Positions 13,101-54,708 of a stretch of DNA of 64,000 nt are shown one piece after another (the stretch's first letter is position 1; each line of letters starts with the position of its first letter). This DNA is from Desulfosudis oleivorans (GTDB lineage: Bacteria > Desulfobacterota > Desulfobacteria > Desulfobacterales > SURF-7). The stretch is taken from assembly GCA_020723325.1 (NCBI GenBank), contig DYJD01000010.1:124001-188000 (forward strand), given 5' to 3'. The position numbers and the translations under genes were made by a program. The notes below the pieces were generated by a model, which saw nothing but the letters and a program-made list of their open reading frames with translations, was not told where the DNA came from and ran no database searches.

Positions 13101-13941
13101 ATACGGTTTGGTAGGCGTGATGATTACAGAAGAAGGTTCAGAAACTCTTCACGTGGACACAATGCTGTTGAGCTGCCGCGCCCTTGGAAGAGGGGTTGAA
13201 TATCGAATGCTTTCCCATATCGGAAAACTCGCGGAAGAAGGACGATTCGGTCGGGTCACGCTGAACTACATTCCCACGCAAAAAAACATGCCGGTTCGGG
13301 ATTTTCTAAAGGCGGTAGCCGAAAAATATGGAAAAGAAAAAGGGGATGGCGTATTTTATGATCTGCCTCCGGCAATTGCCGCAAAAGTAAAATTTTTTCC
13401 CGACAAGCCGCCTGCAATACCAAACGATGATAAACAAAAAGATGAGAAATTTGAGAAAGAAGCAAATTCCGGAAAGCCAAGCAATTTGGATATAGGTACC
13501 TTATTGCTTGAAATTGCAACAGAACTTTCGGATGTCGATCGGATTCAGGGTATCGTGTTTCCGAAAAAGGCTGTTTCGGAAGGAGCGGCAGACCCTGTGA
13601 TGAATAAATTCGATGTGATTTCGCGGATCACTTCCGTATGGAGAGAAGTCCTCCGGATGGATTCAATCGATCCGAATGATAATTTTTTTGAAGTCGGTGG
13701 GAAATCCATCCTGATCCCTCTGATTGTTATTCAACTGAAAAAAGATTTCAATATTGAAATTAGTATTGTGCATATGCTTCAGTATCCCACCATAAAAGCG
13801 CTGGCGGATTTTATCACAAACAATTCGCTGATCTCCACCGATAATTTGAAAATACAGGCACAGAAGCAGAAAGATGCTTTAAGCAGGCAGAAGCAGCGTG
13901 CTATGATGGCAAAGAAGATGTCGATGAAAAATAGGCATTGA
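10192..13941 (+). CDS. NRPS protein: docking domain - condensation - FkbH-like HAD - PCP (no adenylation domain)
   Basis: 1249 aa. Residues 1-55 look like a TubC-type N-terminal docking domain (ILSKISEQNILLWVQDGRL). Residues about 60-500 are a condensation domain with HHIACDAW (about 193-200). Residues about 535-1100 are a full FkbH-like unit: an N-terminal FkbH region, HAD signature ILDCDNTLWNGIIGEDG (about 729-745), FIDDNPLECAEV, then a GNAT-like tail (QLTQRTNQFNLTT). Residues about 1140-1210 are a PCP with EVGGKSI (Ser about 1172), then a Lys/Gln-rich tail. FkbH enzymes load a glyceryl unit from 1,3-bisphosphoglycerate onto a carrier, so this module probably presents a glyceryl or derived hydroxy-acyl group. 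It starts with TTG after a strong GGGAGGAGGGGG and overlaps the previous gene. Confidence 0.9.
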   Translation: MNISDILSKISEQNILLWVQDGRLKFRALKDAFPDELKELIRDNRDEIIRILQERKGQDLVTYPLSFNQQSLWFLHQITEQLPSYNVATACRIISDLDIDAVLYALNNLVKRHEVLRTTYYLSEETHSPMQRVLAHVDIPFEHIDASNWFAAEIKGRVENYYKKPFDLENGPVFRVYIFTRAKKDHIFLLTIHHIACDAWSLKILLDEFAQFYETGVRKKDLDLPFLPFQYKDFVSYQKEMLKSPFGEKALFYWKQTLPHTSSDLNSLSDFKRPMIQTYSGSSYFFNIEGELYQAIKQFKNENNATLYSMLLSVYQLLLMRLSGQKNVMVGTPAACRNRKEYREVCGYFINPVVISGDYRESMTFREYLSEVSKKVFDALDYQEYPFPMLVENLVPQRRSDVSPIFQVMFNLINRKMLGVVADFLCPSADSEPVRLGSLNILPFPISQQEGQYDQTLEIIDTDQFLFCVLKYNTDLFKMETIKKMVEDYQLLLRRVIKNQDSPLSECLNQIERKKAVVEQTDQKKLQLTVTATFTIELLGDTLEFWMKKLGISSDIAFAPYNQVFQQLLDPSSLISKNINGINLIFIRFDDWSRTNDSSLKTITQEHLENLKRNADEFFTAIGNVSSKNPTTFLAFFCPPSPLLMEHSGFSSMVKRIQGELIQKLNQMSGVYPIPFEEILAAYPVEQYYESMGEKIGHIPYTQPFFVALSTLAARKIYGVLSKPYKAIILDCDNTLWNGIIGEDGILGVNVAKDKKWLQMFALEQYNSGMLLCLCSKNNERDVLEVFEKHPDMILKMSHLAAHRINWKPKSENLKSLAQELHIGLDSFIFIDDNPLECAEVQGACPEVLTIQFPANCTDVSNFFENIWAFDHLKVTSEDKKRSQYYKDARDREQSLKEAMNFLTFIEGLNLNIQILEMQPSQIQRVSQLTQRTNQFNLTTIRRSESEIEKLMKTGHHKCYTVTVSDRFGEYGLVGVMITEEGSETLHVDTMLLSCRALGRGVEYRMLSHIGKLAEEGRFGRVTLNYIPTQKNMPVRDFLKAVAEKYGKEKGDGVFYDLPPAIAAKVKFFPDKPPAIPNDDKQKDEKFEKEANSGKPSNLDIGTLLLEIATELSDVDRIQGIVFPKKAVSEGAADPVMNKFDVISRITSVWREVLRMDSIDPNDNFFEVGGKSILIPLIVIQLKKDFNIEISIVHMLQYPTIKALADFITNNSLISTDNLKIQAQKQKDALSRQKQRAMMAKKMSMKNRH

Positions 13942-13974
13942 GGCCAAGTTGTATTAAGATCATGAGAAAACGCC

Positions 13975-15960: not shown

Positions 15961-15976
15961 TTGATAGGAAATAATT

Positions 15977-16228
15977 ATGTCGGAACAGATTTGCGAAGAA
16001 GTACTGGTTTTTATTTGCCGAAATTTCATTGTTGAAAAAAGTGAAATAAATCTAGATGAGTCCCTGATTGACCAGGGGATAATCGACTCATTCGGTTTAG
16101 TTGAAATAAACGCTTTTATAAATCGTGAATATGGGATTACAGTTAAGGAAGAGGAAATGAATCGCGATAATTTCGGTTCAGTGAATAAGATAGTCGGCTT
16201 TATTGAAAGACGAAGGATATCGAAGTGA
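15977..16228 (+). CDS. Free-standing acyl carrier protein
   Basis: 83 aa, four-helix carrier protein with the phosphopantetheine attachment motif IIDSFGLVEI (Ser about 37-38). AGGAAA precedes the ATG. It starts 16 bases after the asparagine synthetase gene and overlaps the PP-loop gene, so the three form a tight operon unit. It may carry the acid that the neighbouring amidotransferase or ATPase modifies. The partner cannot be told from sequence alone. Confidence 0.92.
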   Translation: MSEQICEEVLVFICRNFIVEKSEINLDESLIDQGIIDSFGLVEINAFINREYGITVKEEEMNRDNFGSVNKIVGFIERRRISK

Positions 16229-17277
16229 TCGAAAGGAATGATCGATGTACTAGATGCGTGATTTCATCGAAGTTTCCAAAAGTTACTTTTGATGAAACCG
16301 GTGTCTGCAGCTTTTGTCGGGGACAAATGTTTTTCGCCATAGATAATACTGCAATTGAAAAGATGCGTACTTCAGTTGAAAAGCTTTTATCTTCGGAAAA
16401 GTCAGGCGGGGAATATGATGCAATTGTTTGCTACAGCGGTGGAAAAGACAGCACATATGCACTCCAGCTTGCCAAACAAAGGTACGGCCTAAATGTTCTC
16501 GCTTTTACTTTTGATAATGGATATTTATCCAGCATAGCGTTTAAAAATATCAGTCGTGTAACGGAATCTCTTGGCGTTGATCATTTAACCTTTCGATCAT
16601 CAAAAAAGAATATTCAATCCATCATCAGGGCCAGTTTCCTGCAACCTATTTACAATCCGAGGACATTGCTTCGGATTTCTTCCGGATGTAAATCCTGTAT
16701 TTCAATTGTTAATAATCTAACCCTAAAGCTTGCTTTGGAAAAAAATATTCCCTTCATTATTACCGGATTTACACTCGGCCAGGTCCCTGCAAACGGAATT
16801 GTTTTTCGCAATAATTATCGTTTTTTGGAAGAGAGCCGTGAAGAAAGCCTTAGGAAATTGATAGAAATTGCCGGGTCGGGAGTGGAAAGCTATTTTCGTA
16901 TTCCGGAAAGGCTTTTATCTTCGGTCGGCCCGTTACCTCATACCATTAATCTTTTATGCCTTGAAGACGTTACCGAACAGCATATTTTAGAAAAAATTGA
17001 GCCGCTTGGCTGGATGCAACCACATGATGTGGACGGATGTTCTTCTAACTGTCGACTCAATGCCTTTAACAACTATGTGCATCAGCGGATTTTTGGGTAT
17101 AGTCCATATGAACTAGAGCTCAGCCAGTTAATACTTAAAGGACTATTAACGCGAAAAGAAGCTTTACAGAAACTTAGTGTTGACCAGTGGCAAGAGTGCG
17201 ACACTATTAGGCGGGATTTGTCGATAACGGATGATGACATCGACAAGGTTGCAACAGTCTACAAAGACAAATGGTAA
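16225..17277 (+). CDS. PP-loop ATPase of the N-acetyl-sugar amidotransferase/adenine-nucleotide alpha-hydrolase type
   Basis: 350 aa. The N-terminal Cys pairs CTRC ... CSFC look like a zinc knuckle; the PP-loop is CYSGGKDSTYALQLA (about residues 72-86); a CKSC motif follows (about 155) and CSSNCR near residue 275. The PP-loop activates a substrate by AMP transfer, in relatives to add an amide, thiol or amino group (WbpG/PseA-like and ExsB-like). It starts with GTG overlapping the ACP stop (GTGA). Its tight pairing with the ACP and AsnB suggests one shared amide-forming or thiolating step; this is inference. Confidence 0.82.
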   Translation: MIERNDRCTRCVISSKFPKVTFDETGVCSFCRGQMFFAIDNTAIEKMRTSVEKLLSSEKSGGEYDAIVCYSGGKDSTYALQLAKQRYGLNVLAFTFDNGYLSSIAFKNISRVTESLGVDHLTFRSSKKNIQSIIRASFLQPIYNPRTLLRISSGCKSCISIVNNLTLKLALEKNIPFIITGFTLGQVPANGIVFRNNYRFLEESREESLRKLIEIAGSGVESYFRIPERLLSSVGPLPHTINLLCLEDVTEQHILEKIEPLGWMQPHDVDGCSSNCRLNAFNNYVHQRIFGYSPYELELSQLILKGLLTRKEALQKLSVDQWQECDTIRRDLSITDDDIDKVATVYKDKW

Positions 17278-17318
17278 CAAGGTTCGGAAATATGTATTGA
17301 AAATCAACCGGTAACAAA

Positions 17319-20300
17319 ATGATTTTGGATAACGAAATGAATTATATGGTATTATCTGATGGAAAGCTCCCGATTAATAAAATCCATGGGAAGAGCAGTA
17401 TCTCCGTACCGGCTTCATTGATACAGCGGCAGTTTTGGTTGCTGCACCAGATGTATCCTGAAAGTTCGGCATATAATATTTCTTCAATATTTCGCATTAC
17501 GGGGTTGTTTAATGTTGCAATATTGCAAAAAAGCTTAAATACCATCATTCGACGCCATGAGATTTTCCGCACAACATTCTCTGAGACTCATGATGGGCTT
17601 ATGCAGATTATAGCTCCGGAATGTGATAGCGACATTTCTGTAAAAGTTGCTGAGGGTGTTTTTGCCGATCGGGAAATCGATACGATGATAAAACAAGAAA
17701 TAAGCCGTCCATTCAAGCTTAACGAAGGGCCTCTAATCCGCAGTTTTGTTTTGAAAATTTCAGAAGAATTCCATTTGCTTATTATTACCTTTCATCATAT
17801 TGTCAGCGACTTGCAGACAAAGGATACTTTCGGAGAAGAACTGTCCTCCATCTATAATGCGTTGTCAATCAATGAAGATTCTTTATTGTCGATGCCTGAG
17901 TATCAATATCGTCATTTCAGCGAATGGCAGATAAAATGGTCTCAAGACGAGGATTGTCGAAAGACACTTGCTTTCTGGGAGCAAGAGCTTACCGAAGTTC
18001 ATTCCGTGATAGAACTTCCCATCAATTTTCAGCGGCCTGTAATCGCAACGTTTAATGGAGGTGCCGTAGAACTGGAACTAAACAGGGAACTCACCGAAAA
18101 ATTATCTTTGTTTTGCAGGCGAGAAACAACTACGGATTTTCTCATACTGTTTACCGCATGGGTGGCACTCCTACACCGTTACACCCAAAAAACATCTTTT
18201 GCCGTGGGGGTGCCCATGACCAACCGGCGAAAGGCAAATTATAAAAGCATTATGGGTTGTTTTGTGAATATTCTTCCCATTACTGTCGATCTCTCAGGGA
18301 ATCCGTCATTTTCAGAAGCAATGAAGCGATTGCGGATGAGAATGCTTGCCGCTCATCGCCACCAGGAAACCCCTCTGGAATTGATTTTCAAGCGGGCAGG
18401 AATACGTCGGGATCCGGCATATAATCCCTTATTTCAAACGGGTTTTACTTTTGAACATCCCATGCGTCTTTCATTTTCCGGTCTACAAGTCGAGTCTCTT
18501 TATTATCATCATGGAGGGTCGCAGCTTGATTTGTTTGCTACATTTTGGAAGAGTGGCGAGCGTTTGCGCGGAGTCTTTGAGTTCAATAGCGATCTTTTTG
18601 ATCGTACGACAGTGGAACGGATGACGGAGCATTTCCTTGTAATTGTTTCCGCTTCTCTTGATAATCCGGAATGGAAGATTTCAAACCTGCCTATCATGAA
18701 CGAGCTGGAGTTCCGGCGGATAACATCTGAATGGAACGATACCGCATGCGATATACCGGATGTTAAAGGCATACACCGATTCATTGAGCGCCAGGCACAA
18801 TTTACACCGACGCAAACAGCGGTGGTTTGTTCAAGTGAATCTTTAATTTATCAGGAATTAAATCAGCGTGCTAACCGTCTCGGCCGTTATTTTAGATCTT
18901 TAGGAATTCCCAGCAACAGTCCGATCGGTATTTGCATCGAAAGATCGTGCGATATGTTGGTGGCGGTGCTTGCCGTGCTCAAGGCAGGAGGAGCCTATGT
19001 GCCCCTAGATCCTGATTTTCCACCAGAGCGGATTTCATTTATGATCCGGCAAACCGCCATGCCGATTATTTGCACGAAAAGTAATCTTGCCGGGAAAATT
19101 ACTTCAGGGAATGCACGGCTTGTTGAATTGGATACAGAACATGATGCCATTGAAAAGATGGAGTCAGTCGATATCGCAGATTTTGATAGCTGTATGGACA
19201 GCCTTGCATATATTATTTTTACATCCGGTTCTACTGGCCAGCCAAAGGGAGTTGAAATTACGCATGGAGCACTGCTTAATTTTCTGCTAAGCATGCACCG
19301 GGAACCAGGCCTGACGAAAGACGATGTGCTTGCTGCTGTTACCACTCTTTCTTTCGATATCGCCGGTCTGGAGCTCTTTTTACCGCTATTTGTCGGCGCA
19401 CGAGTGATTATTGTTCCGAATGAAATCTTGTCCGATGGTGAGCAGCTATCCCGGTTAATCCAAGAGCATAATGTGACATGTATGCAAGCGACGCCGACAA
19501 CATGGCGGCTTATCATTGCCGCAGGATGGAAAGGATCAAAAGATTTCCGTGCATTATGTGGGGGCGAAACTTTTCCTCCGGATCTTGCCAGAGAACTTCT
19601 TTTGCGCACCGGTGGGCTATGGAATATGTATGGTCCTACAGAAACAACAGTCTGGTCGACCTGCTGCCGTATTACTGATGCAGACAGACAAATACCGATC
19701 GGACGCCCTATATCGAATACAAAGGCTTATGTTCTTGATACCATGCTCAATCCTGTCCCCATTGGAGTATGGGGAGAGCTATACATCGGCGGTAAAGGGC
19801 TAGCCAAAGGCTACCATAAGCAGCCAGACTTGACCCACGAGAAATTTATCGTTCATCACCTCGCTGAAGGGCGACTTTATAAAACAGGCGATCTTTGCCG
19901 TTACCGTGCGGATGGAATGCTTGAATTCGGTTGCCGAGTCGACAATCAGGTAAAAGTACGTGGATTTCGAATCGAGCCGGGTGAGATTGAAGCTTATTTG
20001 CGTACCCTTTCAACAATTAAAGATGCGCTGGTTATTGCCGTTGAAGACGCCCAGGGAACTCGCCATCTTGTCGCTTATGTTGTACTTAAAGAAGGCCGCT
20101 CACTTACCGTAGAAGAGCTTCGCAGCCATCTTGACAACCTTCTTCCCAAGTATATGGTTCCTTCCATATTTGTGCCCCTTGAACGGTTGCCTCTGACACC
20201 GAATAATAAAATAGATCGAAAAGCCCTGCCTGACCCTTGGTCGAATCGCCTTTCGGTAGGAACAGATTTTCTGCCTCCATCAAGCGATTTTGAAAAGGAA

Positions 20301-20612
20301 CTATCTGAAATATGGGCAGAAGTTTTGGGGCTTGACCGGGTCGGAGTAAAAGATAATTTTTTTGACATGGGCGGTACCTCAATGCTTGTCATGCAAGTTA
20401 AGATTTTGATTTATGGGCGGTTGAAAGTCGATGTCCCGGTTATAAGGCTTTTTCAATTCCCCACGATTAACACACTCGCGAATTTCATTAGAAACAATGC
20501 TGCGGTCTCCACGGAGCATGTGAAAATTCAGGCAAGGAAGCAGAAAGATGCCTTGAGCAGGCAGAAACAGCATGCGCTGATGGCAAGGAAGGTGAAGCGG
20601 AATTCAAAATGA
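17319..20612 (+). CDS. NRPS module C-A-PCP, predicted glycine-activating
   Basis: 1097 aa. The condensation domain spans about residues 25-460 with HHIVSDLQT. The adenylation domain spans about 490-980 with IIFTSGSTGQPKG, LSFDIAGLE, NMYGPTETT and NNKIDRKALP. The PCP (about 990-1060) has MGGTSML at its Ser (about 1018). Aligning by hand to GrsA gives the pocket code D-I-L-Q-L-G-M-V-W-K, close to the code known for glycine. No epimerase or methyltransferase domain is present. The Lys/Gln-rich C-terminal tail nearly repeats that of the upstream NRPS. It overlaps the PKS gene by four bases (ATGA). The ATG at 17319 has no strong ribosome-binding site; in-frame ATGs at 17337 and 17346 are alternatives. 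Confidence 0.92.
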   Translation: MILDNEMNYMVLSDGKLPINKIHGKSSISVPASLIQRQFWLLHQMYPESSAYNISSIFRITGLFNVAILQKSLNTIIRRHEIFRTTFSETHDGLMQIIAPECDSDISVKVAEGVFADREIDTMIKQEISRPFKLNEGPLIRSFVLKISEEFHLLIITFHHIVSDLQTKDTFGEELSSIYNALSINEDSLLSMPEYQYRHFSEWQIKWSQDEDCRKTLAFWEQELTEVHSVIELPINFQRPVIATFNGGAVELELNRELTEKLSLFCRRETTTDFLILFTAWVALLHRYTQKTSFAVGVPMTNRRKANYKSIMGCFVNILPITVDLSGNPSFSEAMKRLRMRMLAAHRHQETPLELIFKRAGIRRDPAYNPLFQTGFTFEHPMRLSFSGLQVESLYYHHGGSQLDLFATFWKSGERLRGVFEFNSDLFDRTTVERMTEHFLVIVSASLDNPEWKISNLPIMNELEFRRITSEWNDTACDIPDVKGIHRFIERQAQFTPTQTAVVCSSESLIYQELNQRANRLGRYFRSLGIPSNSPIGICIERSCDMLVAVLAVLKAGGAYVPLDPDFPPERISFMIRQTAMPIICTKSNLAGKITSGNARLVELDTEHDAIEKMESVDIADFDSCMDSLAYIIFTSGSTGQPKGVEITHGALLNFLLSMHREPGLTKDDVLAAVTTLSFDIAGLELFLPLFVGARVIIVPNEILSDGEQLSRLIQEHNVTCMQATPTTWRLIIAAGWKGSKDFRALCGGETFPPDLARELLLRTGGLWNMYGPTETTVWSTCCRITDADRQIPIGRPISNTKAYVLDTMLNPVPIGVWGELYIGGKGLAKGYHKQPDLTHEKFIVHHLAEGRLYKTGDLCRYRADGMLEFGCRVDNQVKVRGFRIEPGEIEAYLRTLSTIKDALVIAVEDAQGTRHLVAYVVLKEGRSLTVEELRSHLDNLLPKYMVPSIFVPLERLPLTPNNKIDRKALPDPWSNRLSVGTDFLPPSSDFEKELSEIWAEVLGLDRVGVKDNFFDMGGTSMLVMQVKILIYGRLKVDVPVIRLFQFPTINTLANFIRNNAAVSTEHVKIQARKQKDALSRQKQHALMARKVKRNSK

Positions 20613-23600
20613 GTGTCGAAAATTATCAATCAGAAGATTCCGTGGAAGGAGTCGCGATCATTGGAATGGCAGGCCGTTTTCCAGGAGCGGATAATGTGGA
20701 AGAATTCTGGCAAAAATTAGTCGACGGCGTATCCTCCATATCCACTTTTACCGATGAAGAGTGTATTCTTTCCGGAGTACCGAAATATTTACTTAAAAAT
20801 CAAAATTTTGTAAAAAGAGGAGCTGTTGTAAAGAGTCCCGACCTTTTCGATGCCCGTTTTTTCGGATACAGTCCCAGAGAAGCCCGCTATATGGACCCTC
20901 AGCAACGAATTTTTCTCGAGTGTTCATGGGAAGCACTTGAAAATGCAGGCTATGATTCGGAGGAATACGAAGGAACTATCGGCGTATATGCTGGGTGCGG
21001 CATCAACAATTATCTCCTGAAAAATCTTCTTTCTACGTCTCCGCAAATGGAATCGGTTGTGACGCCCATGACATTTTTCGGAAATGAAAAGGATTTTCTA
21101 ACCACCCGTGTTTCGTACCTCTTGAACTTAACCGGTCCCAGCATCGGCATTCAGACCGCCTGTTCCACTTCACTGGTTACCATTCAGCTCGCCTGTCAGG
21201 GACTCCTTACATATCAATGCGACATGGCTTTAAGCGGGGGCATATCGCTGCAGGCTCCCAGAATGAAGGGATATTTGTATACGGAAGGGCAGATATTGTC
21301 ATCCGACGGTTATTGCAGGGCTTTTGACAAGGAAGCGTCCGGAACCATTTTCGGTGAGGGTGTCGGAATTGTGGTTTTAAAAAGGCTTGAAGACGCGTTA
21401 AAAGACAGGGACACAATCTATGCCGTGATCAAGGGGGTTGCGGTTAATAACGACGGATCGGATAAGGTGGGATACACCGCGCCTAGCGTCAACGGACAGG
21501 CTGCGGTAATCGCAATGGCTCAGGCATTGGCAGGAGTCAATCCGGATGACATCAGCTATATTGAAGCGCACGGAACCGGAACGCAACTTGGTGATCCGAT
21601 GGAAGTGGCCGCGTTAACTCAAGTCTTTCGAGAATCAACCGATAGAAAAGGTTATTGCGCTATCGGTTCCGTCAAGCCGAATATCGGGCATTTGGATGTG
21701 GCGGCCGGTGTTGCGGGACTTATTAAAACCGCTCTCGCAATCAAACATAAAAAAATCCCCGCTTCGCTTTTTTTTCATGAAGCCAATCCTGAACTGAAGC
21801 TTGATACCAGTCCTTTTTATGTAAACGATAAGCTTGTCGAATGGAAGACCAACGGTAAGCCGCTCCTGGCCGGGCTGAGTTCTTTCGGTATCGGGGGAAC
21901 AAATTCCCATGCGATTCTTTCTGAAGCCCCTCCGGTGGATTCAACGATTTCCTCCAAGCCGTCATTTCTTCTTCTGCTTTCAGCTAAAACAGAAACGGCG
22001 CTGGCAAAAATGACGGAGAATTTAATCAATCATTTCAGGAAACAGCCGAATATCAATCTGTCCGACACAGCATATACCTTGCAGACAGGACGGCGTCATT
22101 TCAAGCACCGCCGCATGATTGTCTGTGGAAATACGGACAATGCGATAGCATTGTTTGAATCATCAAACTCAAAAAGGGCTCATACCGGAATCCTGCCGGA
22201 AAAAAAGAAAGACGTGGTTTTCATGTTTACCGGCCAGGGTTCCCAATATGTCGACATGACAAAGGAGTTATACCGAAAGCTCCCTGTCTTCAAGGAAGAA
22301 CTGGACCGCTGCGCCGATATCCTGATCCCCTTTCTGAACCTGGACCTGCGAAATCTCCTTTATCCGGAGGAGAGTAATATCAAGCGATCAGAGGAACTGC
22401 TTAAGGAAACTTCCATTACCCAGCCGGTCCTGTTTTCAATTGAATATTCCCTGGCAAAATTCTGGATAAGCTGTGGTGTGGTTCCACAGGCGATGATCGG
22501 TCACAGCATCGGTGAATATGTGGCTGCATGTATTTCCGGAGTTTTTTCGCTGAGCGAAGCCCTGGAGCTGGTTGCGATGCGGGGGCGTCTGATGCAGATT
22601 CAGGAGCGGGGTTCCATGCTGGCAATACTGCTTCCGGAAGAGGATGTAAAAACCTTGATACATGATCGGTTGTCGATTGCGGCCATCAACAGCCCTGCGC
22701 AATGTGTCGTGTCCGGAACAGAGTATGATATCGAAAAATTGCAGGAAACTCTATCTCAACCGTCTGCCGATGGAAAGAAAATGGTACGATGTCAGAAGTT
22801 GGAAACATCCCATGCTTTTCATTCCTGGATGATGGAACCCGTAATTAGACCATTAATGGATTTTTTGAAAAAAATTGAACTTCGGGCTCCTGAGATACCG
22901 TTTATTTCCAATGTCACCGGTACATGGATCACCAGGGGTCAGGTTACCGATCCTGCCTACTGGTCGACCCATCTCCGGCATACCGTGCGGTTTTCCGACG
23001 GGATCAAAGCCCTGATCGCAGAATCGGATAAGATCCTGCTTGAACTGGGGCCGGGAATGGTGCTGACATCGCTTGCTCGGCTTCATTTTAACCAGGATAC
23101 CACTTCCATCGCATTACCTTCCGTTCGCCGGAGTGTTGAAAAAGAAGCGGATTACGCTTTTTTACTGAAGACGCTCGGGCATGTATGGATCGAGGGCCAA
23201 AAAATAGACTGGAAAGGATTTTACCAGGATGAAAGCAGGATGCGTATTCCGCTTCCAACCTATCCATTTGAGCGTGAAAGTTATTGGATCGATGCTGCTG
23301 TAAAACCGACCGGGGATGAACGTATTGCCGGTTCATCGGTTTACCGGAGCATTCTATTTAAAGTGCTTTCCAAAGCGCCCGGTATAAAGAGATGGTTCCC
23401 AACAGATGTTTCTGATCCGTCGAAAGCGGCGGATACCGTAACTACATTGGATGGAATGGATGGGGGCGTACGAATCAACGCCGTTGATGATATTGAAAGG
23501 AAATTGGCTGGAATCTGGAAAAATGTACTTGGCGTAAAAACACTGTCCAGGGACGACGACTTTTATGATCTGGGAGGCCATTCCCTGATTGCTGCGCAAG

Positions 23601-24568
23601 TATTTGCGGAGATCGAGTCTGTTTTCGGAAAAAGCATACCATTATCAACATTGTTTCATTCGTCGACAATCGCCAGGTTGGCTGATGTTCTCCGGGAAGA
23701 GAATACGGACAAGTTATGGTCATCCCTGGTTCCAATACGATCAACCGGGTCCCGGCGTCCGATATATCTTGTTCACGGCGCGGAGGGAAATGTATTGTTA
23801 TATCGTTCACTGGCGCATTATCTGGGTGAGGAACAGCCGGTATACGGATTGCAGTCGGCCGGGCTGGACGGGAAAGAGGATTTTGATCCCAATTTTGAAA
23901 ACGTTGCCGCAAGATATATTCAGGAGATTAAAAAGGTGCAACCGGAAGGTCCGTATAATCTGGGGGGGTATTGCCTGGGCGGTACAATCGCACTGGAAAT
24001 GGCGCGGCAGCTCATTACTCTGGGAGATAAGGTGATTTTTTTGGGAATGATTGAAATATACAATATTCAGACGTTAAAGTGGCCGTTTTCTTTATATGTG
24101 AGAATCTTTAACTACTTCCTGAACATCTGGTACCATTTTCTGAACCTGGTCTCGTCTGAAAATGACATGAAGATGCAATTTTTTATGGAAAAATTTCAAG
24201 TGGAGATGAATCGGTTCAGGGTGCTGAGGCAGATTGGTTATGCCAAATTTTTAAGACTTATTGGAAAAGATTCGGGCAAGAAGTTTCACCACCTTCGAGT
24301 GGACAAGGAATATGACCGGGCGCTGGAATACTATATTCCGGAAAAATACCCAGGTAAAATCAACGTTTTTGGAACGAAAACCCTTCCTCTCGGTTTCACG
24401 GATACAGAGACATATGGATTTGGCGTGATAGCGGAAAAAGGTGTGGCGATGCATATTATCCCGGTTTATCCGCGCGGAACCCTTATCGAGCCATATGTTA
24501 AAATACTGGCGGAAAAAATTGGAAACTGCATGAAGGAGGCGGCGGAGGAATATTTAAAATCGCCATAA
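20609..24568 (+). CDS. Type I polyketide synthase KS-AT-ACP-TE, malonyl type
   Basis: 1319 aa, no reductive domains. KS about 13-440: active Cys in IQTACSTSLV (about 185), His in EAHGTGTQLGDP and KPNIGHLDVA. AT about 535-860: FTGQGSQY, GHSIGEYVA and HAFH (about 735), the last indicating malonyl-CoA. ACP about 955-1030: LGGHSLIAA (Ser about 990). TE about 1050-1310: GGYCLGG, with Cys instead of Ser as nucleophile. The TE position usually holding the catalytic His (GDH) reads VYP, and the acidic position reads IEIY, so its triad looks altered. It should extend the peptidyl intermediate by one two-carbon unit, keep the beta-ketone and release the product. Confidence 0.93.
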   Translation: MSVENYQSEDSVEGVAIIGMAGRFPGADNVEEFWQKLVDGVSSISTFTDEECILSGVPKYLLKNQNFVKRGAVVKSPDLFDARFFGYSPREARYMDPQQRIFLECSWEALENAGYDSEEYEGTIGVYAGCGINNYLLKNLLSTSPQMESVVTPMTFFGNEKDFLTTRVSYLLNLTGPSIGIQTACSTSLVTIQLACQGLLTYQCDMALSGGISLQAPRMKGYLYTEGQILSSDGYCRAFDKEASGTIFGEGVGIVVLKRLEDALKDRDTIYAVIKGVAVNNDGSDKVGYTAPSVNGQAAVIAMAQALAGVNPDDISYIEAHGTGTQLGDPMEVAALTQVFRESTDRKGYCAIGSVKPNIGHLDVAAGVAGLIKTALAIKHKKIPASLFFHEANPELKLDTSPFYVNDKLVEWKTNGKPLLAGLSSFGIGGTNSHAILSEAPPVDSTISSKPSFLLLLSAKTETALAKMTENLINHFRKQPNINLSDTAYTLQTGRRHFKHRRMIVCGNTDNAIALFESSNSKRAHTGILPEKKKDVVFMFTGQGSQYVDMTKELYRKLPVFKEELDRCADILIPFLNLDLRNLLYPEESNIKRSEELLKETSITQPVLFSIEYSLAKFWISCGVVPQAMIGHSIGEYVAACISGVFSLSEALELVAMRGRLMQIQERGSMLAILLPEEDVKTLIHDRLSIAAINSPAQCVVSGTEYDIEKLQETLSQPSADGKKMVRCQKLETSHAFHSWMMEPVIRPLMDFLKKIELRAPEIPFISNVTGTWITRGQVTDPAYWSTHLRHTVRFSDGIKALIAESDKILLELGPGMVLTSLARLHFNQDTTSIALPSVRRSVEKEADYAFLLKTLGHVWIEGQKIDWKGFYQDESRMRIPLPTYPFERESYWIDAAVKPTGDERIAGSSVYRSILFKVLSKAPGIKRWFPTDVSDPSKAADTVTTLDGMDGGVRINAVDDIERKLAGIWKNVLGVKTLSRDDDFYDLGGHSLIAAQVFAEIESVFGKSIPLSTLFHSSTIARLADVLREENTDKLWSSLVPIRSTGSRRPIYLVHGAEGNVLLYRSLAHYLGEEQPVYGLQSAGLDGKEDFDPNFENVAARYIQEIKKVQPEGPYNLGGYCLGGTIALEMARQLITLGDKVIFLGMIEIYNIQTLKWPFSLYVRIFNYFLNIWYHFLNLVSSENDMKMQFFMEKFQVEMNRFRVLRQIGYAKFLRLIGKDSGKKFHHLRVDKEYDRALEYYIPEKYPGKINVFGTKTLPLGFTDTETYGFGVIAEKGVAMHIIPVYPRGTLIEPYVKILAEKIGNCMKEAAEEYLKSP

Positions 24569-45328: not shown

Positions 45329-46051
45329 TTATCTTTTCATTTTGTTGCGGCAGGCACTTGCAAGTCCTACTAAGCCACTGCCCAAAAGAAGAAGGATAGT
45401 GGCCGGTTCAGGCACATTGTGGGGTGGAGGCGCCTTCTCATCGATATAAAACATATCCATGCCAAAGCAATCGACTTTGTTGGCTGCGGTAATCAAGACA
45501 TATGCGACTGCATTAAAGTCTGAGCCCAGGAAGACCTGAGGATTCGTTCCGGTCCAACCCCAATCATCAGGAGGTAGTAAAACCGCTGATCCGATTGGGT
45601 TATTGGCTGCGTCATAACCGGCTATATAAGCCAGCTCATTGCCGGAAGCCAGCCAACCACCGACATCCGTGTTGGAGGTCAATTCAAAATAATTGATGTC
45701 GAACAAGGAATTGTCGGTTTTGTAGATTTTAATGGCCGTCAGATCGCCAAAATTGCCGGTGGCCCAATGGCCATGGATCACGTCGTTGTTTCCCCCGTAA
45801 TAGTTCCCGATAATGGAAGTGAATGAATTGTTGGGGTCTGGGACCGAAGCTTCAATGAAATCCAGAATAAAGCCGTCCTCTTCGTATTTATCCACATCAG
45901 AAAAGGTTTGAAAAGTATCCGTGGTGTAAGTCGTCGCGCTGTTATTGAGATATACAGTCCCGCCAGTAAAATCAATAATTACGGCATTCGCAGGACCGGT
46001 CAATAATAAAAAAAGCAAAACAGTGGTTAAAGCAACCATTTTTGACTTCAT
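45329..46051 (-). CDS. PEP-CTERM sorting-signal protein (probable exosortase substrate)
   Basis: 240 aa. A signal peptide of about 23 residues (cleavage after GPANA) and a C-terminal sorting signal VPEPATILLLLGSGLVGLA then ACRNKMKR: the VPEP motif, a hydrophobic helix and a basic tail. The middle is a single, Asn/Asp/Tyr-rich beta-type domain without catalytic motifs known to me. The exosortase at 5994-6854 would process it at the PEP motif. GAGGAGGAG precedes the ATG. A sigma-54-like site lies about 110 bases upstream and a terminator 20 bases downstream, so it is transcribed alone. Confidence 0.93.
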   Translation of the reverse strand: MKSKMVALTTVLLFLLLTGPANAVIIDFTGGTVYLNNSATTYTTDTFQTFSDVDKYEEDGFILDFIEASVPDPNNSFTSIIGNYYGGNNDVIHGHWATGNFGDLTAIKIYKTDNSLFDINYFELTSNTDVGGWLASGNELAYIAGYDAANNPIGSAVLLPPDDWGWTGTNPQVFLGSDFNAVAYVLITAANKVDCFGMDMFYIDEKAPPPHNVPEPATILLLLGSGLVGLASACRNKMKR

Positions 46052-46597: not shown

Positions 46598-49500
46598 CTA
46601 CCAGTACCATCCAATGGTTCCCGTCGCCCCCCGAACATTGTCATAATCAGCCTGGATAACTATCGGCCATTTCAGATAATCAGGAAAGTAGCTGATCCCG
46701 CCGCCGAACAGAATGCCGATTTTGCTCTTGGAGGATTGCTCATAGTGGAGTCCGGTGGCCTGGGATCGCGCGAGTTCACTCTCGGTATAAACGGTGCAAC
46801 CGCCGATGGCTGTTAGATACAGGCTGGTTGAGCCAAGTTCAAGACCAAGCTTGCCCAGCAGTCCGACCTCGGTGCCCTTTCTTTTGTTTTCAAGCCGGAC
46901 AAAATCATTATTGGGGCATGGGGTTGAAATCGTTTGATCAGGGAGCTCTTTATCGCCATGGGGTATAAACGGGATACCCACACCGAACAATAAGTTCAGG
47001 TTCCCGGCATTGATTTCTTTGGCTCCGGTCTCCATAGTAACGTTATACGTGTCAGCATCGCCACCTGCGCCGCCGCCGACTACGAAATAGCCTGCAAAGG
47101 CGGGTGAACAGAATGAAATCGTTAATGTCATTGCCCAAACAACAAAAGAGATCCAGCGCCTTGATATTGAAACGAACAATAAAAATATCAATGCCAGGGC
47201 TGTATTAACTGGAATTGAGTTCAATCCGGAACCGGTCTTGCCGGATGGTGCCATGGTATGGAGGAAACAGCCGCCCACATCGATAACCTGAATGGGGGCA
47301 TCAGGCGCTACTGTTACGCTGGTTGTATCGCTGTGGGAAAAACCGGAACCGGTTGAAACCGTCAACTGGAATTGAAGGGTTGTGCCTTTTTCGCCGCCTA
47401 GGGGCGCTACGAAACTCGCTTTTGCCTGGTCTGTATTCTTTAAGGCTACAGTCGGGCCTTGAATTTGTTTCCATTCATATTGGGCTTTACCATCGGGATT
47501 GTAGGATTGACTGCCGTCCAACGTGACCGGTTGGTCGGCAGAGGTCTGGATGTCGGCCCCGGCGTCAGCAATAGAAGGATAGGTTTGAGTTGAACCTATA
47601 TCGGGGATGGGCTGTTCTGTAAAAGGTTGAAATTCAACACTGGGGAGGTTGTAATTGTTTTTATGGTCGAAAATTGAATTATTGATGGTCATGGAATCAT
47701 TTGTTCCCCAATAATTGCCCGGCATGGCGATAGTAGTCGATACTGCCGGCCAGGCGATCATATATACAAGATAGTTGGCATTAAATGTATCGATAATGTT
47801 ATTGCTGTTGATGTCCAGTTGAAAAGAAGCATTATCCGTGGCGCTCAGAGCCATAACTCCTGCCTTTAGTCCTTCCGTGTTTTGGTTTGGATCATAATCA
47901 ATGGTAAAAACATTGGCTTCCAAATCAACGTCGGCCCGGGCTTCATGGTTTACGGAACGGGTTCCGTCAAGGGTCACATCTTCGCTTGCTGAAACGGTTC
48001 GATCCGCACCAGGATCGGCAATCAATGAGCCTTTTACTTTAATGGAAATCGTATCTGTGGCCGGAAGGCCGCCTTTATCGACTATGGTCAATCGAAATGT
48101 CAGGGTTTCAGCAGCGGTCGCGCCGACCTGCGGAGCAATGAATGAAGCAATGGCTGTATTTGGATTTTCAATCGTTACGATCGGACCTTCGGTTTGTGTC
48201 CAGGTATAGGATGAAATCCCGTCATCCTGGCCGGATGATCCGGAACCATTCAGATTGACTGTTTGCCCTTGGACAACAGTTTGATCACTACCGGCTGCAG
48301 CCACCGGGTAGACATTATTTTGATAGAAAATAATATCCACGGTATCTGCGGAACTCAAACCTCCCTGATCCGTCACCGTTAGTTGGAAGGTCATGCGATC
48401 ACCGGCCACCACGGATTGGGAAACAAGGAAACGTGCATTGGCGCTATTGGAGTCTTGCAGATCAACGGTCATTCCGGAAGTCTGAGTCCATTGATACCCG
48501 GCAATGCCCTGGCTGTCGGCAGAGGCCGCACCATTGAGATTGACGGTTACTTGCTGAGCCACTGTCTGGGGGATGCGGACATTTTGGTCGGCCCCGGCCC
48601 GGGCCACTGGCGGGGCATTACTGCCGATGACGGTCAGTCTAACTGTTTCGCTTGCCTGGCGCCCGTTTTCATCAGTAACCGCTAAGCGAAAAACCAGGGA
48701 GGCCACATTGCCGCCTGGGTCAGGGGCATTAAAAGTCGGTTTGGCGCTTTGCGGGTTTTGAAGGACAACAGGTGTCCCTCCGGTTTGCTCCCAAAGATAG
48801 GACTTGATTCCGCTGGTGGGATCATCAAGCTGAACCTGAATACCGGTTCCGAATATTTCCGGAGCAGAACTGATGATGGTGTTGTTTTTGATCTGAATAT
48901 CATTTGACCGTACGAGGAGATCCACGGCCCTTGTGTTGTAGAGGAAATAATTGTCGAAAAGTCGACCGCCTTCGGCTGAGAGCTGAACGCCGGTGGAGTT
49001 TTTATAGATCAGGTTTGAAATGATTTGAATACTGCCGCTTAATGAATTTATTCCACCCTGATCTGTTGAGGCGGTTGCCAAGAGGCCGGTAGTAGAACTG
49101 AAACGAATAACATTATGGGTGATCAGGGGCATGGCATTCAGACAACTGATCATGGCAGCACTTTCCGGATTGTTGCCCCCGTATTCTATTACACAGTATT
49201 CCATTATACTCCCGGTCGCCGCTGCTTCATTCCAATCCGTGCTCATGTCGTTGAAAATGATTGTTCCCCATGGTTTGGTCCGATCCTGGGCGGTAAACAC
49301 AATGGGGTGCATTGGGTCGCCTTTGGCAATCATTTCACCTTCAATAGTAAGTGTATAGCCCCTGGCAGTGTCCGAACGCGACTGGAAAATGACTCCAACA
49401 CCCGGATCAATGGTCAGGGCGCTGTTTTGCGCCACAAGAATATCACCGGTGATCACAATGGGGCTATCTGCTGTTGTCCAATGGGTGTCCGAACTGATAA

Positions 49501-49600
49501 TGCCGCTGGCGTTCAAACCATGGGATGGGATTGGATGAAACAAGAAAATCAGCGCTATAAAAAAGAAAGACCGAAAAACAAGGCCTTTTTGTGTTTGCAT
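46598..49600 (-). CDS. Large PKD/REJ-type surface protein with sorting-like segment and beta-barrel-like C-terminus
   Basis: About 1000 aa. GGGAGG five bases before ATG 49600 sets the start, and a signal peptide follows at once (SFFFIALIFLFHPIPSHG). Residues about 25-280 are beta-helix-like with LTIDPGVGVIFQSRS. Then come at least five repeats of PKD/REJ type, each with the [DP]AGADQ...VxLxGxxS...YxWxQ pattern. Near residue 790 a GGCFLHTMAPSG box, a hydrophobic helix and SRR resemble a C-terminal sorting signal, but the frame continues with a second signal-like segment (VVWAMTLTISFCSPAFAG) and about 140 residues of barrel-like sequence ending in TGTIGWYW. It is probably exported and outer-membrane linked; an operon with the upstream 49706-50986 gene is likely. 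Confidence 0.8.
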   Translation of the reverse strand: MQTQKGLVFRSFFFIALIFLFHPIPSHGLNASGIISSDTHWTTADSPIVITGDILVAQNSALTIDPGVGVIFQSRSDTARGYTLTIEGEMIAKGDPMHPIVFTAQDRTKPWGTIIFNDMSTDWNEAAATGSIMEYCVIEYGGNNPESAAMISCLNAMPLITHNVIRFSSTTGLLATASTDQGGINSLSGSIQIISNLIYKNSTGVQLSAEGGRLFDNYFLYNTRAVDLLVRSNDIQIKNNTIISSAPEIFGTGIQVQLDDPTSGIKSYLWEQTGGTPVVLQNPQSAKPTFNAPDPGGNVASLVFRLAVTDENGRQASETVRLTVIGSNAPPVARAGADQNVRIPQTVAQQVTVNLNGAASADSQGIAGYQWTQTSGMTVDLQDSNSANARFLVSQSVVAGDRMTFQLTVTDQGGLSSADTVDIIFYQNNVYPVAAAGSDQTVVQGQTVNLNGSGSSGQDDGISSYTWTQTEGPIVTIENPNTAIASFIAPQVGATAAETLTFRLTIVDKGGLPATDTISIKVKGSLIADPGADRTVSASEDVTLDGTRSVNHEARADVDLEANVFTIDYDPNQNTEGLKAGVMALSATDNASFQLDINSNNIIDTFNANYLVYMIAWPAVSTTIAMPGNYWGTNDSMTINNSIFDHKNNYNLPSVEFQPFTEQPIPDIGSTQTYPSIADAGADIQTSADQPVTLDGSQSYNPDGKAQYEWKQIQGPTVALKNTDQAKASFVAPLGGEKGTTLQFQLTVSTGSGFSHSDTTSVTVAPDAPIQVIDVGGCFLHTMAPSGKTGSGLNSIPVNTALALIFLLFVSISRRWISFVVWAMTLTISFCSPAFAGYFVVGGGAGGDADTYNVTMETGAKEINAGNLNLLFGVGIPFIPHGDKELPDQTISTPCPNNDFVRLENKRKGTEVGLLGKLGLELGSTSLYLTAIGGCTVYTESELARSQATGLHYEQSSKSKIGILFGGGISYFPDYLKWPIVIQADYDNVRGATGTIGWYW

Positions 49601-49705
49601 GCAACCTCCCATATGCCTGGTTGTATTCTTTTTAAGGATCATCCGTCTGGCTAAATTGATCCGGTGCTGTTCATTAAATGTGTTAAGGTACATGTTTTGC
49701 TCGCA

Positions 49706-50986
49706 TTACCTGATCAATGATATCTCCTGTCGGGGCCTGAGAATTACCGAGATCATTCCTCGATTTTCAACATAGCTGTTTTCTTCAATTCCGGAATCCA
49801 ATTTCCGGAAAAGGTAATCCAGGCGAAATACCATCCAAGGTGCTGCCTGAAAGGCAAGTCCTGATCCCGCTTGCCAGTTTGTATTTTCACGTACCGGCTC
49901 TAGTTCATAATATATATCCCGGCGGTATCTGCCGGAAAGACCTCCGGCTAAAAGACGCGAAAATTGATAATTCAGGCTACAGGCCACATTGTAAAAGGAG
50001 CGAAATCCCAGATTTTCCGCATCAAAAGAAGTGCGCTCCTGGCCGGCATTGCCGGACAAGGAAAAGCTGTTCCCGATATCCCAGCGGTAAATGCTTTCCA
50101 CGGAACCGACGAAGCCGGAATCGTCTTCTGTGCTCATATTGTCTCGATAAAAATAACCGAAACTGGATGAAAAGCTGGAGATGATCATTTCGTCCCAGCG
50201 GAAGCCGATGCGGGGGCTGTGAATACGATAGTCTTCGCTTTCCTCGATATAATCCGTATTGCCGTAAAGGTATTCAAGATAGCCGTCCAGATGACGAGTA
50301 AAGCGCTTTATCGCTCTTAATCGGCCTGAAGCATCATTTACATTTTTCGTGATCTCAAAATCACTGTGTGAGTACTTGAGTTCGATTTCCGCGGCATATT
50401 CATTGGGGAATAGCCAGTAGGTGAGCAACAGACTTGGGCGTTGAAATTTTCTGTCCTCAATCGCCGGGTCCCGGTTATCGAGGATGGCGTATTCATAGCG
50501 AAGGGTGACTGAATCCTCTTGGCCGAACCGATTAACCACTCCTAAACCGGTTGTATTCGTAAAATATGGGGTCCGCCCGCGTCTGGCGGTCGCATCTGTG
50601 TCGGAAACCGGATCTTCTGTATAAAGGTAGGCATTGCTTAATTCTACAGTCGTCTTTTCAGCGATCTCGCTGCGGGCATTGAGCAGGGCATTGTGTCGGA
50701 AATTGTTGTTTTCCGGAAAATGGATATAAGCAGCATAGGTTGGATTGTAAGACAAAGTAAGGGTTGAATTCCGTCCGGTTAAAAGAAAATTAATCCCTGG
50801 ATTGGTAAGGGTGATGAAATCATATTTTTCATCTGTGGGACTTAGGTAAACATTATCCGTATACATACTGCCGACGGATATCTGGGGAAGGACATTTACG
50901 GCCGATAAAGCGTCGTCAGCAAGAAAGCATATAAGGACAATAAGCCGGATTGCATATCTTACTGGATGGTGAGAATAAATATTCAT
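49706..50986 (-). CDS. Outer-membrane beta-barrel protein, PEP-CTERM-system associated type
   Basis: 426 aa. A signal peptide (about residues 1-28) is followed by alternating amphipathic strands rich in Tyr, Asn and Arg (ISVGSMYTDNVYLSPTDEKYDF, TLSYNPTYAAYIHF, TLRYEYAILDNRDP, FRLDYLFRKLDSG), ending in RGMISVILRPRQEISLIR. This is the build of the uncharacterised outer-membrane proteins that travel with exosortase EPS loci. It may serve EPS secretion or anchoring; no enzyme motif is seen. It is the first gene of a minus-strand pair with the large surface protein. Confidence 0.85.
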   Translation of the reverse strand: MNIYSHHPVRYAIRLIVLICFLADDALSAVNVLPQISVGSMYTDNVYLSPTDEKYDFITLTNPGINFLLTGRNSTLTLSYNPTYAAYIHFPENNNFRHNALLNARSEIAEKTTVELSNAYLYTEDPVSDTDATARRGRTPYFTNTTGLGVVNRFGQEDSVTLRYEYAILDNRDPAIEDRKFQRPSLLLTYWLFPNEYAAEIELKYSHSDFEITKNVNDASGRLRAIKRFTRHLDGYLEYLYGNTDYIEESEDYRIHSPRIGFRWDEMIISSFSSSFGYFYRDNMSTEDDSGFVGSVESIYRWDIGNSFSLSGNAGQERTSFDAENLGFRSFYNVACSLNYQFSRLLAGGLSGRYRRDIYYELEPVRENTNWQAGSGLAFQAAPWMVFRLDYLFRKLDSGIEENSYVENRGMISVILRPRQEISLIR

Positions 50987-52296: not shown

Positions 52297-53409
52297 ATGT
52301 GTTCTGAAATTGTTAATTCATTTGTCCAAGCCTGGCATGATCACCCGGCGCGGTTACGACGGCTGACGGCTGCCGGCCGGAAATGCATCGGCTATTTTTG
52401 TACTTACACACCAGTGGAAATCCTGTATGCGGCCGGTTTCATTCCCGTGCGCATCACCGGCGGGCGCGGAACGGTGGAGAAAGCCTATTCCCTTGCCCCG
52501 GATTTTATCTGCCCTTTCATGAAGCGCAGTCTGGAAAAGGCCCTCGCAGGCGAATATGACTATTTATGCGGTGTGATTCAAAGCTACACCTGCGACGCCG
52601 CCTGCGGCATGTTGAATATCTGGAAGGAAAATCTCAAAGGAACACATTATCATCTGCTATCCTTGCCGTATAATGATAATGATGGGGCGCGTACCTATCT
52701 GCGCCTTGAATTGAAGGCCCTTATGGAAAGGCTGGTTGTAGATACTGCAAGGATTTCAGCAAATGCCCTTGGGCAGGTAGTGGACCTTTATGACGGCATT
52801 CGGCAGCGCATCAGCCTGTTGTATGCTGGGAGGTTCAAGGGGCGCTTGCCGATTTCAGCCCAGGAGCTGGCCTATGTCGTGCTGGCCGGGCAGGTGCTGC
52901 CGCCCCAGGACTACCATGAACAACTGGAACGACTGATTCATTCCATCGACGATAAGGATGTGGAGCAAACAGGTGTACCTGTATTGCTCTCCGGCAGTCT
53001 GGTGGAAGAACCGGAGATATTGGGGGCTGTGGAAGCAGCGGGCCTGCGTATCGTTGCCGACGACCTTTGCACCGGCCTGCGACCTTATTCTCCGGCGTTT
53101 GGCAGGGGTGAAGATCCGGTTGATCGGATTGTTGATCGACTCATGGCACGAAGCCCCTGCCCGAGCAGGTCCAAGGCAATTCAAAGGGCGGCCCATTTGC
53201 GCACCCTGGTCATGAAGTCCGGGGCAAAGGCGGTTATTTTTCTGGTGCAAAAATTCTGCACGCCACACCTTGCAGATATTCCCATTCTAGCAGAAGAGTT
53301 GAAGAAGATGGACATTCCGATACTCGTACTTGAAATGGATGAGCATTGGCAAAGCTCCGGTCAATTCCAGGGCCGCTTGCAAAGTTTTCTGGAAATGATT
53401 GTTTTGTGA
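52297..53409 (+). CDS. 2-hydroxyacyl-CoA dehydratase/benzoyl-CoA reductase family subunit (HGD-D)
   Basis: 370 aa. CIGYFCTYTPVEILYAAGFIPVRITGG opens the fold, followed by FICPFMKRSLEKAL and QSYTCDAACGMLNIW; the Cys residues in these segments are the usual [4Fe-4S] ligands. Related enzymes (HgdA/B, FldB/C, BcrB/C, BadD/E) use a low-potential electron from an ATP-dependent activator to remove water from 2-hydroxyacyl-CoA or to reduce an aromatic ring. It pairs with the next gene. No activator ATPase (HgdC/BadF-like) is in the window. Confidence 0.9.
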   Translation: MCSEIVNSFVQAWHDHPARLRRLTAAGRKCIGYFCTYTPVEILYAAGFIPVRITGGRGTVEKAYSLAPDFICPFMKRSLEKALAGEYDYLCGVIQSYTCDAACGMLNIWKENLKGTHYHLLSLPYNDNDGARTYLRLELKALMERLVVDTARISANALGQVVDLYDGIRQRISLLYAGRFKGRLPISAQELAYVVLAGQVLPPQDYHEQLERLIHSIDDKDVEQTGVPVLLSGSLVEEPEILGAVEAAGLRIVADDLCTGLRPYSPAFGRGEDPVDRIVDRLMARSPCPSRSKAIQRAAHLRTLVMKSGAKAVIFLVQKFCTPHLADIPILAEELKKMDIPILVLEMDEHWQSSGQFQGRLQSFLEMIVL

Positions 53410-53436
53410 AGTAGGGCGATTGTTTTTTTCCTTTGA

Positions 53437-54708
53437 ATGGATGGGAGCATGGAAAAAACACAAAAATCGATAAAGCGTCTCAAGTCGGGCAAAGCTTTAA
53501 ATCAGGTGGTGGCCGAATATTATCTGGAATGCATGCAGGCGCCCCGGGAAGGCAGACCGGTGGTTTGGATGCCGCCCATGAACGGCGCCATTGAAATGTG
53601 CTATGCCATGGATCTGCAACCGGTATTTCCGGAAAACTGGTCGCCGGTTTGCGCCGCTTTCGGGCTGACGCCCAGGAATTTCGAAGTTGCCGAAGGTATG
53701 GGCTATTCAAGGGATCTGTGCGGTTATTTGCGCAACATCATCGGTTATGTCAACGGCCCCATGCAGGCGGAAGCGGCCATGCCCTTGGGCCGTCTGCCGG
53801 AGCCGGATATCCTGCTTTCTCCCAACGGCGGCTGCGTACCGGTGATGAAAATTTTTCATGCCCTGGAGCGGCGCTTCCCCAGTGCCAAAGTATTTGCCGG
53901 GGATTTGCCCCAGGTGGCGGTGGAGGAAATCAAGCAACATCATATGGATTATGCTGTACAAGAAGGGGCGCGGCTGATCGAATTTTTGGAACATGCCGGC
54001 AAAAGGAAATTAAATGAAGAACGTTTAAGAGAAGTAGTGGCCCTATCGGATCAGGCCTGTGCCCTCTGGGATGAGATCATGACCTATAGACGTGTGATTC
54101 CGGCCCCTTTTTCAGCAGCCGAAATCGGCATCATGTTCGTCATGGTCACGCGCCAGGGGACCGCAAAGGCCGTGGATTTTTTAACCCTGGTCCGGGATGA
54201 GATACAGGAAAGAGCGCATCAACACCAGGGCGTCATTGCCGATGAGAAGCTCCGCCTGTTTTGGGATAATATCCCCCTTTGGTATAACATGGGACTGTTC
54301 AACTATTTTGAAAAAATGGGCGGCGTGGTGGTGGCGGAAACCTATTCAGCCGCCTGGTCCCTGCGGCTTGACCCCAGTCGCCCTTTCGAGTCTTTGGCCT
54401 TGAAAAGTCTGCGCTCCTATCCCATGGTATCCTGTGTGTCCGTTGAGCGCCGCAAGCAGATGCTGCTGAATGCCTGTCGGGAATACCATATAGACGGTGT
54501 GATCATGCATCGCAATAAATCCTGTTTGCCGATCACATTGGGCCAGATGGACATCAAACGCGCGCTGGAGACGGAACTTGGTATTCCCACTGTATTCATC
54601 GATGCTGATCATATGGATGCCCGCAATTTTTCCGTGGCCCAGTTTCAGGCCCGGGCGGATGCCTTTATGGAAATGCTGCTCGCGCGCAAGGGATATGCCC
54701 ATGGTTAA
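53437..54708 (+). CDS. 2-hydroxyacyl-CoA dehydratase/benzoyl-CoA reductase family subunit (partner)
   Basis: 423 aa. Family features: WMPPMNGAIEMCYAMDLQPVFPENW, PVCAAFG, GYSRDLCGYLRNIIGYV and LLSPNGGCVPVMKIFHALE, which carry the probable cluster-binding Cys residues, and GVIMHRNKSCLPITLGQMD near the C-terminus. With the preceding subunit it should form the heterodimeric catalytic component. The start could be ATG 53437 or 53449; neither has well-spaced ribosome-binding sequence. The substrate cannot be read from sequence. Confidence 0.9.
   Translation: MDGSMEKTQKSIKRLKSGKALNQVVAEYYLECMQAPREGRPVVWMPPMNGAIEMCYAMDLQPVFPENWSPVCAAFGLTPRNFEVAEGMGYSRDLCGYLRNIIGYVNGPMQAEAAMPLGRLPEPDILLSPNGGCVPVMKIFHALERRFPSAKVFAGDLPQVAVEEIKQHHMDYAVQEGARLIEFLEHAGKRKLNEERLREVVALSDQACALWDEIMTYRRVIPAPFSAAEIGIMFVMVTRQGTAKAVDFLTLVRDEIQERAHQHQGVIADEKLRLFWDNIPLWYNMGLFNYFEKMGGVVVAETYSAAWSLRLDPSRPFESLALKSLRSYPMVSCVSVERRKQMLLNACREYHIDGVIMHRNKSCLPITLGQMDIKRALETELGIPTVFIDADHMDARNFSVAQFQARADAFMEMLLARKGYAHG

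Follow-up and report, generated by a model that had tools for sequence, protein, structure and literature searches.

A surface-type PKD-domain protein and a predicted outer-membrane beta-barrel are fused in one gene across a second signal peptide in Desulfosudis oleivorans and related Desulfobacterales

The DNA analysed here (the window), from a bacterium with sulfate-reducing relatives, is a 64,000-nucleotide stretch of the Desulfosudis oleivorans assembly GCA_020723325.1 (contig DYJD01000010.1, positions 124,001 to 188,000). On its minus strand the frame from 49693 to 46598 is uninterrupted by stop codons, and the original prediction of one open frame at 46598-49600 joining a surface-type protein to a barrel-like protein agrees with this reading (Table 1). 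An in-frame ATG further upstream at 49693 would give a product of 1031 residues but has no Shine-Dalgarno sequence; the start at 49600 was preferred because it is preceded by GGGAGG at 4 nt and because homologues start at the equivalent place.

Table 1. Features of the fused gene and of the gene directly upstream (window coordinates)
Feature	Position	Strand	Evidence or remark
Whole fused gene	46598..49600	-	ATG at 49600, stop at 46598; 1000 aa + stop
Shine-Dalgarno sequence GGGAGG	49605..49610	-	Sequence; 4 nt ahead of ATG 49600
N-terminal signal peptide (SP1)	49517..49600	-	Hydrophobic segment; 27% mean pairwise identity among relatives
Right-handed beta-helix-like domain (NosD-like)	48839..49516	-	NosD E 0.0013; family profile A3
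PKD domains 1-3 (K319L-like PKD)	48026..48838	-	PF22352 E 1.4e-61
Beta-helix-like segment between PKD domains	47624..48025	-	47% mean pairwise identity in relatives; fold predicted from sequence
PKD domain 4	47309..47623	-	PF22352 match and AlphaFold2 model
GGCFLHTM, CFI-box-like motif (residues 776-783)	47252..47275	-	Cys-Phe invariant in 13/13 fused proteins
Hydrophobic helix 1 ("sorting" helix)	47165..47215	-	Hydropathy; AlphaFold2 helix
Arg-Arg of SRR, predicted cytoplasmic hairpin turn	47156..47161	-	Basic loop in 13/13 fused proteins; AlphaFold2 helix break
Internal signal peptide (SP2) ending A-F-A (SPAFA)	47093..47155	-	Ala at -1 in 12/13; coincides with signal peptide of stand-alone barrels
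Predicted outer-membrane beta-barrel, 8 strands, 164 aa, ends WYW	46601..47092	-	AlphaFold2 pLDDT 90.4; OmpX/Ail Z 12.8
Upstream gene, another predicted outer-membrane beta-barrel	49706..50986	-	BBP2_2; TIGR03016-like below cut-off

The low identity of SP1 among relatives is what a signal peptide would show. The beta-helix that follows is weakly seen in the window protein, with a Pfam NosD match below the cut-off, and Beta_helix scores over the cut-off in a homologue whose halves lie in separate genes (L088). The PKD profile PF22352 covers four stretches of the protein in total. GGCFLHTM, the hydrophobic helix and SRR are all present as first described, with the motif lying somewhat ahead of the proposed position near residue 790, and the second signal peptide ends in SPAFA with the predicted cut before the next Gly. 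The aromatic end of the barrel was also recognised correctly, but its length had been underestimated at about 140 residues. Hydropathy analysis of the full-length fused proteins placed hydrophobic segments at the N-terminal signal and at the junction pair and nowhere else; in one homologue (L089) the N-terminal segment falls under the hydropathy threshold.

A homologue of the upstream barrel gene immediately precedes the fused gene in eight relatives (L079-L086), within the window's clade only. In L083, a small exported protein ending GGGGCFFDELVRIIVMD is encoded next to this upstream barrel gene (10863-11330, minus strand) and is possibly a CFI-box-like protein of the same operon. Elsewhere in the window, an exosortase gene (5994-6854, plus strand; TIGR02602 over cut-off, XrtA-like and below the XrtA cut-off) sits in an exopolysaccharide locus that also encodes export proteins and sugar transferases. 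Within that locus, the plus strand at 10192-24568 carries NRPS/FkbH-domain, NRPS and type I PKS genes, between which asparagine-synthase-like genes were recognised by eye. A PEP-CTERM protein gene was found at 45329-46051 (minus strand), and two 2-hydroxyacyl-CoA dehydratase/benzoyl-CoA-reductase-like subunits (below cut-offs) are encoded adjoining the locus at 52297-54708 (plus strand).

AlphaFold2 (22 sequences) modelled the barrel with eight strands (pLDDT 90.4, pTM 0.75), strand 1 beginning one or two residues beyond the SP2 site. Foldseek matches to this model were marginal (best E 1.2e-3, to OmpA), and a second structural aligner returned OmpX and Ail (1qj9, 3qra) with Z 12.8 over ~133 residues. 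The barrel is thus modelled as an eight-stranded OmpX/OmpA-type fold. It is like OmpX, Ail and OmpA in size, in the fold predicted for it and in having an aromatic C terminus, but shares only ~12% identity with them, matches no Pfam family at E <= 10 and, unlike them, in this order nearly always shares its genome with a beta-helix/PKD partner.

With the barrel alone as query, 24 of 389 genomes of the class were matched (own genome, 22 clear and one marginal), all belonging to one order, Desulfobacterales according to its named relatives, with other records labelled more broadly as Deltaproteobacteria or Proteobacteria. A single-sequence scan of genome contigs gave no match, where an alignment-based search did. 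The loci of the 22 clear genomes were examined. Counting the window, 13 genomes from several families carry the fused form in one frame (window, L079-L087, L089, L093, L100), with an identical order of parts in the 12 others. Among them are Desulfonema magnum 4be13 (L100/L153), whose genome is complete, and a draft homologue (L093) whose frame is broken elsewhere than at the junction. Seven genomes (L088, L092, L095, L096, L098, L099 and, from outside the 22 loci, L125) encode the halves as separate neighbouring genes, in which the barrel gene encodes its own signal peptide and the PKD protein terminates at or after the Cys-Phe box. Only 12 nt separate the stop of the PKD gene from the start of the barrel gene in L088, and one gene intervenes in L092. 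The PKD protein ends at most about a dozen residues past the box in L088, L095, L098 and L099 (GCFITSIQ, GCFISTVGRY, GCFIGTGMGEWSF and GCFIGTML, respectively, each followed by a stop), in box, helix and basic residues in L092 and L096, and in a longer tail beyond the box in the fragmentary L125. At the four remaining loci (L090, L091, L094, L097) no PKD gene adjoins the barrel, and for three of these the beta-helix/PKD partner was found on another contig. Other lineages of the phylum yielded stand-alone barrels that are more distant, three of them full-length, plus a partial match; no PKD gene adjoins the stand-alone barrels. In genomes of the same family no barrel was found, only other PKD proteins, and those of them that were read and are complete end in a bare CFI box. 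The proposal that two exported proteins had become joined, to be checked by comparing split and fused homologues, is strongly supported by these neighbouring genes, and the fusion of two proteins in one gene is established.

Across the C-terminal alignments of the 13 fused proteins, the stretch from the last PKD domain to the barrel has no invariant residues other than Cys-Phe. Every one of them has a loop with two to six Lys/Arg and zero or one Asp/Glu between the two hydrophobic segments, and all but one have Ala directly ahead of the barrel; the junctions vary in length, yet are always in frame. Within the window's clade, pairwise identity is 20-26% at the junction and 27% in SP1, compared to 56-65% in the PKD domains and the barrel, and conservation across the junction is highest at the second codon position, as expected if hydrophobicity and not sequence is kept. 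SP2, whose cleavage site was judged from hydropathy, Ala at -1/-3 and position, aligns with the signal peptide at the N terminus of the stand-alone barrels, and the signal-peptidase-like site is conserved at the exact position of theirs. The AlphaFold2 model of the last 345 residues (mean pLDDT 77, moderate) has an ordered PKD domain, then the box and a linker, both disordered, a pair of helices interrupted at Arg-Arg, and finally the barrel. No globular domain spans the junction in this model; a continuous one had been named as counting against the original prediction.

In a tree of 27 barrels (unrooted, with several inner branches poorly supported) the fused rows occupy three positions. One is the window's clade with families f5, f6 and f16, beside the split L088; another is family f36; and the third comprises two rows interspersed with split and stand-alone ones. 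A single clade of all fused rows was rejected (p-AU 2e-6), with a minimum of three changes, and a smaller grouping of the window's clade with f36 was rejected weakly (p 0.039). Three separate fusions would be the simplest count of events, though the direction, fusion or splitting, is not provable from an unrooted tree. In Desulfonema magnum, a AAAAGGAAAAAAAAATATG start is found in front of SP2 within the fused frame, where a ribosome-binding-site-like sequence and an ATG precede the internal signal (L153, ~5915-5935), and judging by these retained elements this fusion looks young.

The beta-helix/PKD and barrel families co-occur almost without exception. A profile of the beta-helix domain gave strong matches (E < 1e-59) in 21 of the 389 genomes, each of them one of the 24 barrel genomes, and the best match outside the barrel genomes was 4e-33. 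The two genes are non-adjacent in three of the 21. As for the three barrel genomes without a strong match, the PKD gene runs off the contig end in two and one genome is 53% complete. The corresponding Fisher value (7e-32) ignores shared ancestry and is not readable as a probability.

The box of the fused proteins resembles the CFI-box motif NF041763 in that a Cys-Phe-(Ile/Leu) box follows a PKD array, with the Cys-Phe of the Cys-Phe-(Ile/Leu/Val) core invariant. However, the window's GGCFL box lies below the model's score (no match to NF041763 at E <= 10) and is internal, being followed by helix, SRR, second signal peptide and barrel; the C-terminal or near-C-terminal location of the motif is seen in the split L088, L095, L098 and L099 and not in the fused form. 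Five proteins of the own genome score over the NF041763 cut-off, most of them ending about six residues past CFI, and since own-genome proteins end in a bare CFI box, the box would work without a helix there. Surface-type proteins of the own genome ending in this way, about six residues past CFI and without a transmembrane helix, are L101, L102, L104, L105, L106 and L110. A DNA pattern for Gly-Cys-Phe was found 169 times against 88 in the control, about twice as often, and is too unspecific for use.

The order of motif, transmembrane helix and basic residues known from MYXO-CTERM and GlyGly-CTERM signals is present in the fused protein. It shares the Cys-containing motif, helix and Arg-rich end with MYXO-CTERM/myxosortase (PMC11980579), and the motif followed by a helix and an Arg-rich end with GlyGly-CTERM/rhombosortase (PMC3237569), but unlike both of these its signal is not at the C terminus. 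The conserved Cys of MYXO-CTERM proteins is required for cleavage and proposed to be lipidated (PMC11980579), and by analogy the Cys of the window box may be handled in the same manner. Rhombosortase is not supported as the cognate enzyme, with none over the cut-off in the own genome (2 of 16 genomes had one over the cut-off), nor is exosortase, which was not found in the fused genomes G218 and G070, both over 90% complete. The own genome does have an exosortase, but the fused protein contains no PEP motif. The literature searched contained no paper about the CFI box or about precursors of the FbcH kind.

We consider it probable that the gene encodes a bacterial envelope polyprotein whose paired hydrophobic segments make a hairpin, with the barrel being released by signal peptidase and the PKD half being handled via the Cys-Phe box. 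We infer the membrane topology, the signal peptidase cleavage, the processing of the box and the functional partnership as follows. A single chain would be exported by Sec through SP1, the beta-helix/PKD part passing to the periplasm and the helix after the Cys-Phe box stopping in the inner membrane. The Arg-Arg would remain cytoplasmic and SP2 would re-enter the membrane, so that the two hydrophobic segments form the hairpin. In this topology, predicted from the positive-inside rule, the PKD part and the barrel lie outside and Arg-Arg inside, the chain crossing the membrane inwards in helix 1 and outwards in SP2. A signal peptidase cut after SPAFA would free the barrel, to be inserted in the outer membrane by Bam, while the PKD half would be left on the hairpin and then be released or anchored via the box by a putative sorting enzyme, like its unfused homologues; its partner would probably be the barrel. 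Because strand 1 begins so near the AFA site, an uncleaved SP2 helix in the inner membrane would be incompatible with a barrel in the outer membrane, which the barrel could reach only if the chain were cut there. Judged from sequence and models, cleavage after export is very likely, and the separate encoding of the halves in relatives makes one chain cut in two very probable.

Processing might stop at the first of these cuts, with the barrel freed by signal peptidase, the box unprocessed and the PKD half staying in the inner membrane on the hairpin. The searches for rhombosortase and exosortase, in which no cognate enzyme was found, the window box scoring below the NF041763 cut-off and the several split homologues that likewise end in a helix and basic residues are consistent with this, and we regard it as unlikely though far from negligible, because none of the 13 fused proteins departs from Cys-Phe while the remaining junction has diverged so far in the window's clade, and because split homologues and own-genome proteins that end at the box without a helix indicate that the box does something on its own. 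Production of the barrel as a separate product of the same gene, from an internal translation start near SP2, fits the start retained in Desulfonema magnum; it is improbable given that the window's clade lacks a conserved start codon with a Shine-Dalgarno sequence at SP2 and that the window's only ATG there would yield a signal of 13 residues that lacks a basic end.

That the protein stays uncut, with the barrel as outer-membrane anchor of the PKD part, would suit the single open frame and the joint inheritance of its parts, but we find it very unlikely, as strand 1 following SP2 so closely leaves no linker from the inner to the outer membrane and the halves are made separately in related species. 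The original prediction had let the barrel anchor or display the PKD part covalently. Eight-stranded barrels have both termini on the periplasmic side, so that the PKD part would not be displayed, and the junction separates the halves; covalent display is unlikely, and a non-covalent partnership of the two halves following cleavage is possible. An artefact, either a missing stop codon or a frame error joining two neighbouring genes, could draw on the adjoining halves of other species and on the broken frame of L093, and has next to no probability given that 12 other genomes, including a complete one, have the same fusion, with junctions of differing length all in frame. The lost stop codon that had been named as a possible refutation is thus not the case, and sequencing error is ruled out by the fused homologues.

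The polyprotein reading was compared to two known kinds of architecture. Type V autotransporters likewise have a large passenger-like exported part and then a C-terminal barrel, but in them the passenger leads straight into a translocating barrel of about 12 strands, whereas the fused protein has eight strands, a second signal peptide between passenger and barrel, and relatives with split genes; the strand number and the internal signal peptide rule out an autotransporter. FbcH of Bradyrhizobium is a precursor of cytochrome b and c1 that is cut at an internal signal peptide. As in FbcH, a single chain containing an internal signal peptide comprises two exported proteins that relatives encode separately, but here a PKD surface-type protein that bears a sorting-like box is combined with an outer-membrane barrel, and the hairpin would be built from a sorting helix and a signal peptide.

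The arrangement originally noticed is real, conserved and unusual. To our knowledge, bacterial polyproteins split at an internal signal peptide are rare, and this fusion of a surface protein bearing a sorting-like signal with an outer-membrane barrel seems to have arisen more than once. A more specific proposal, that the barrel serves the Cys-Phe-box surface protein as its dedicated partner or receptor in the outer membrane, the polyprotein giving a 1:1 ratio in some lineages and the sorting helix being reused as half of the inner-membrane hairpin, is tentative and on balance doubtful; if true, it would add a previously undescribed surface-display system and provide the first candidate receptor for the CFI box. 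The fusion, the gene neighbourhood and the co-occurrence together indicate a working pair, which would offer a way into the role of the CFI box: what cuts the box, what holds the protein, and whether the small barrel is its receptor.
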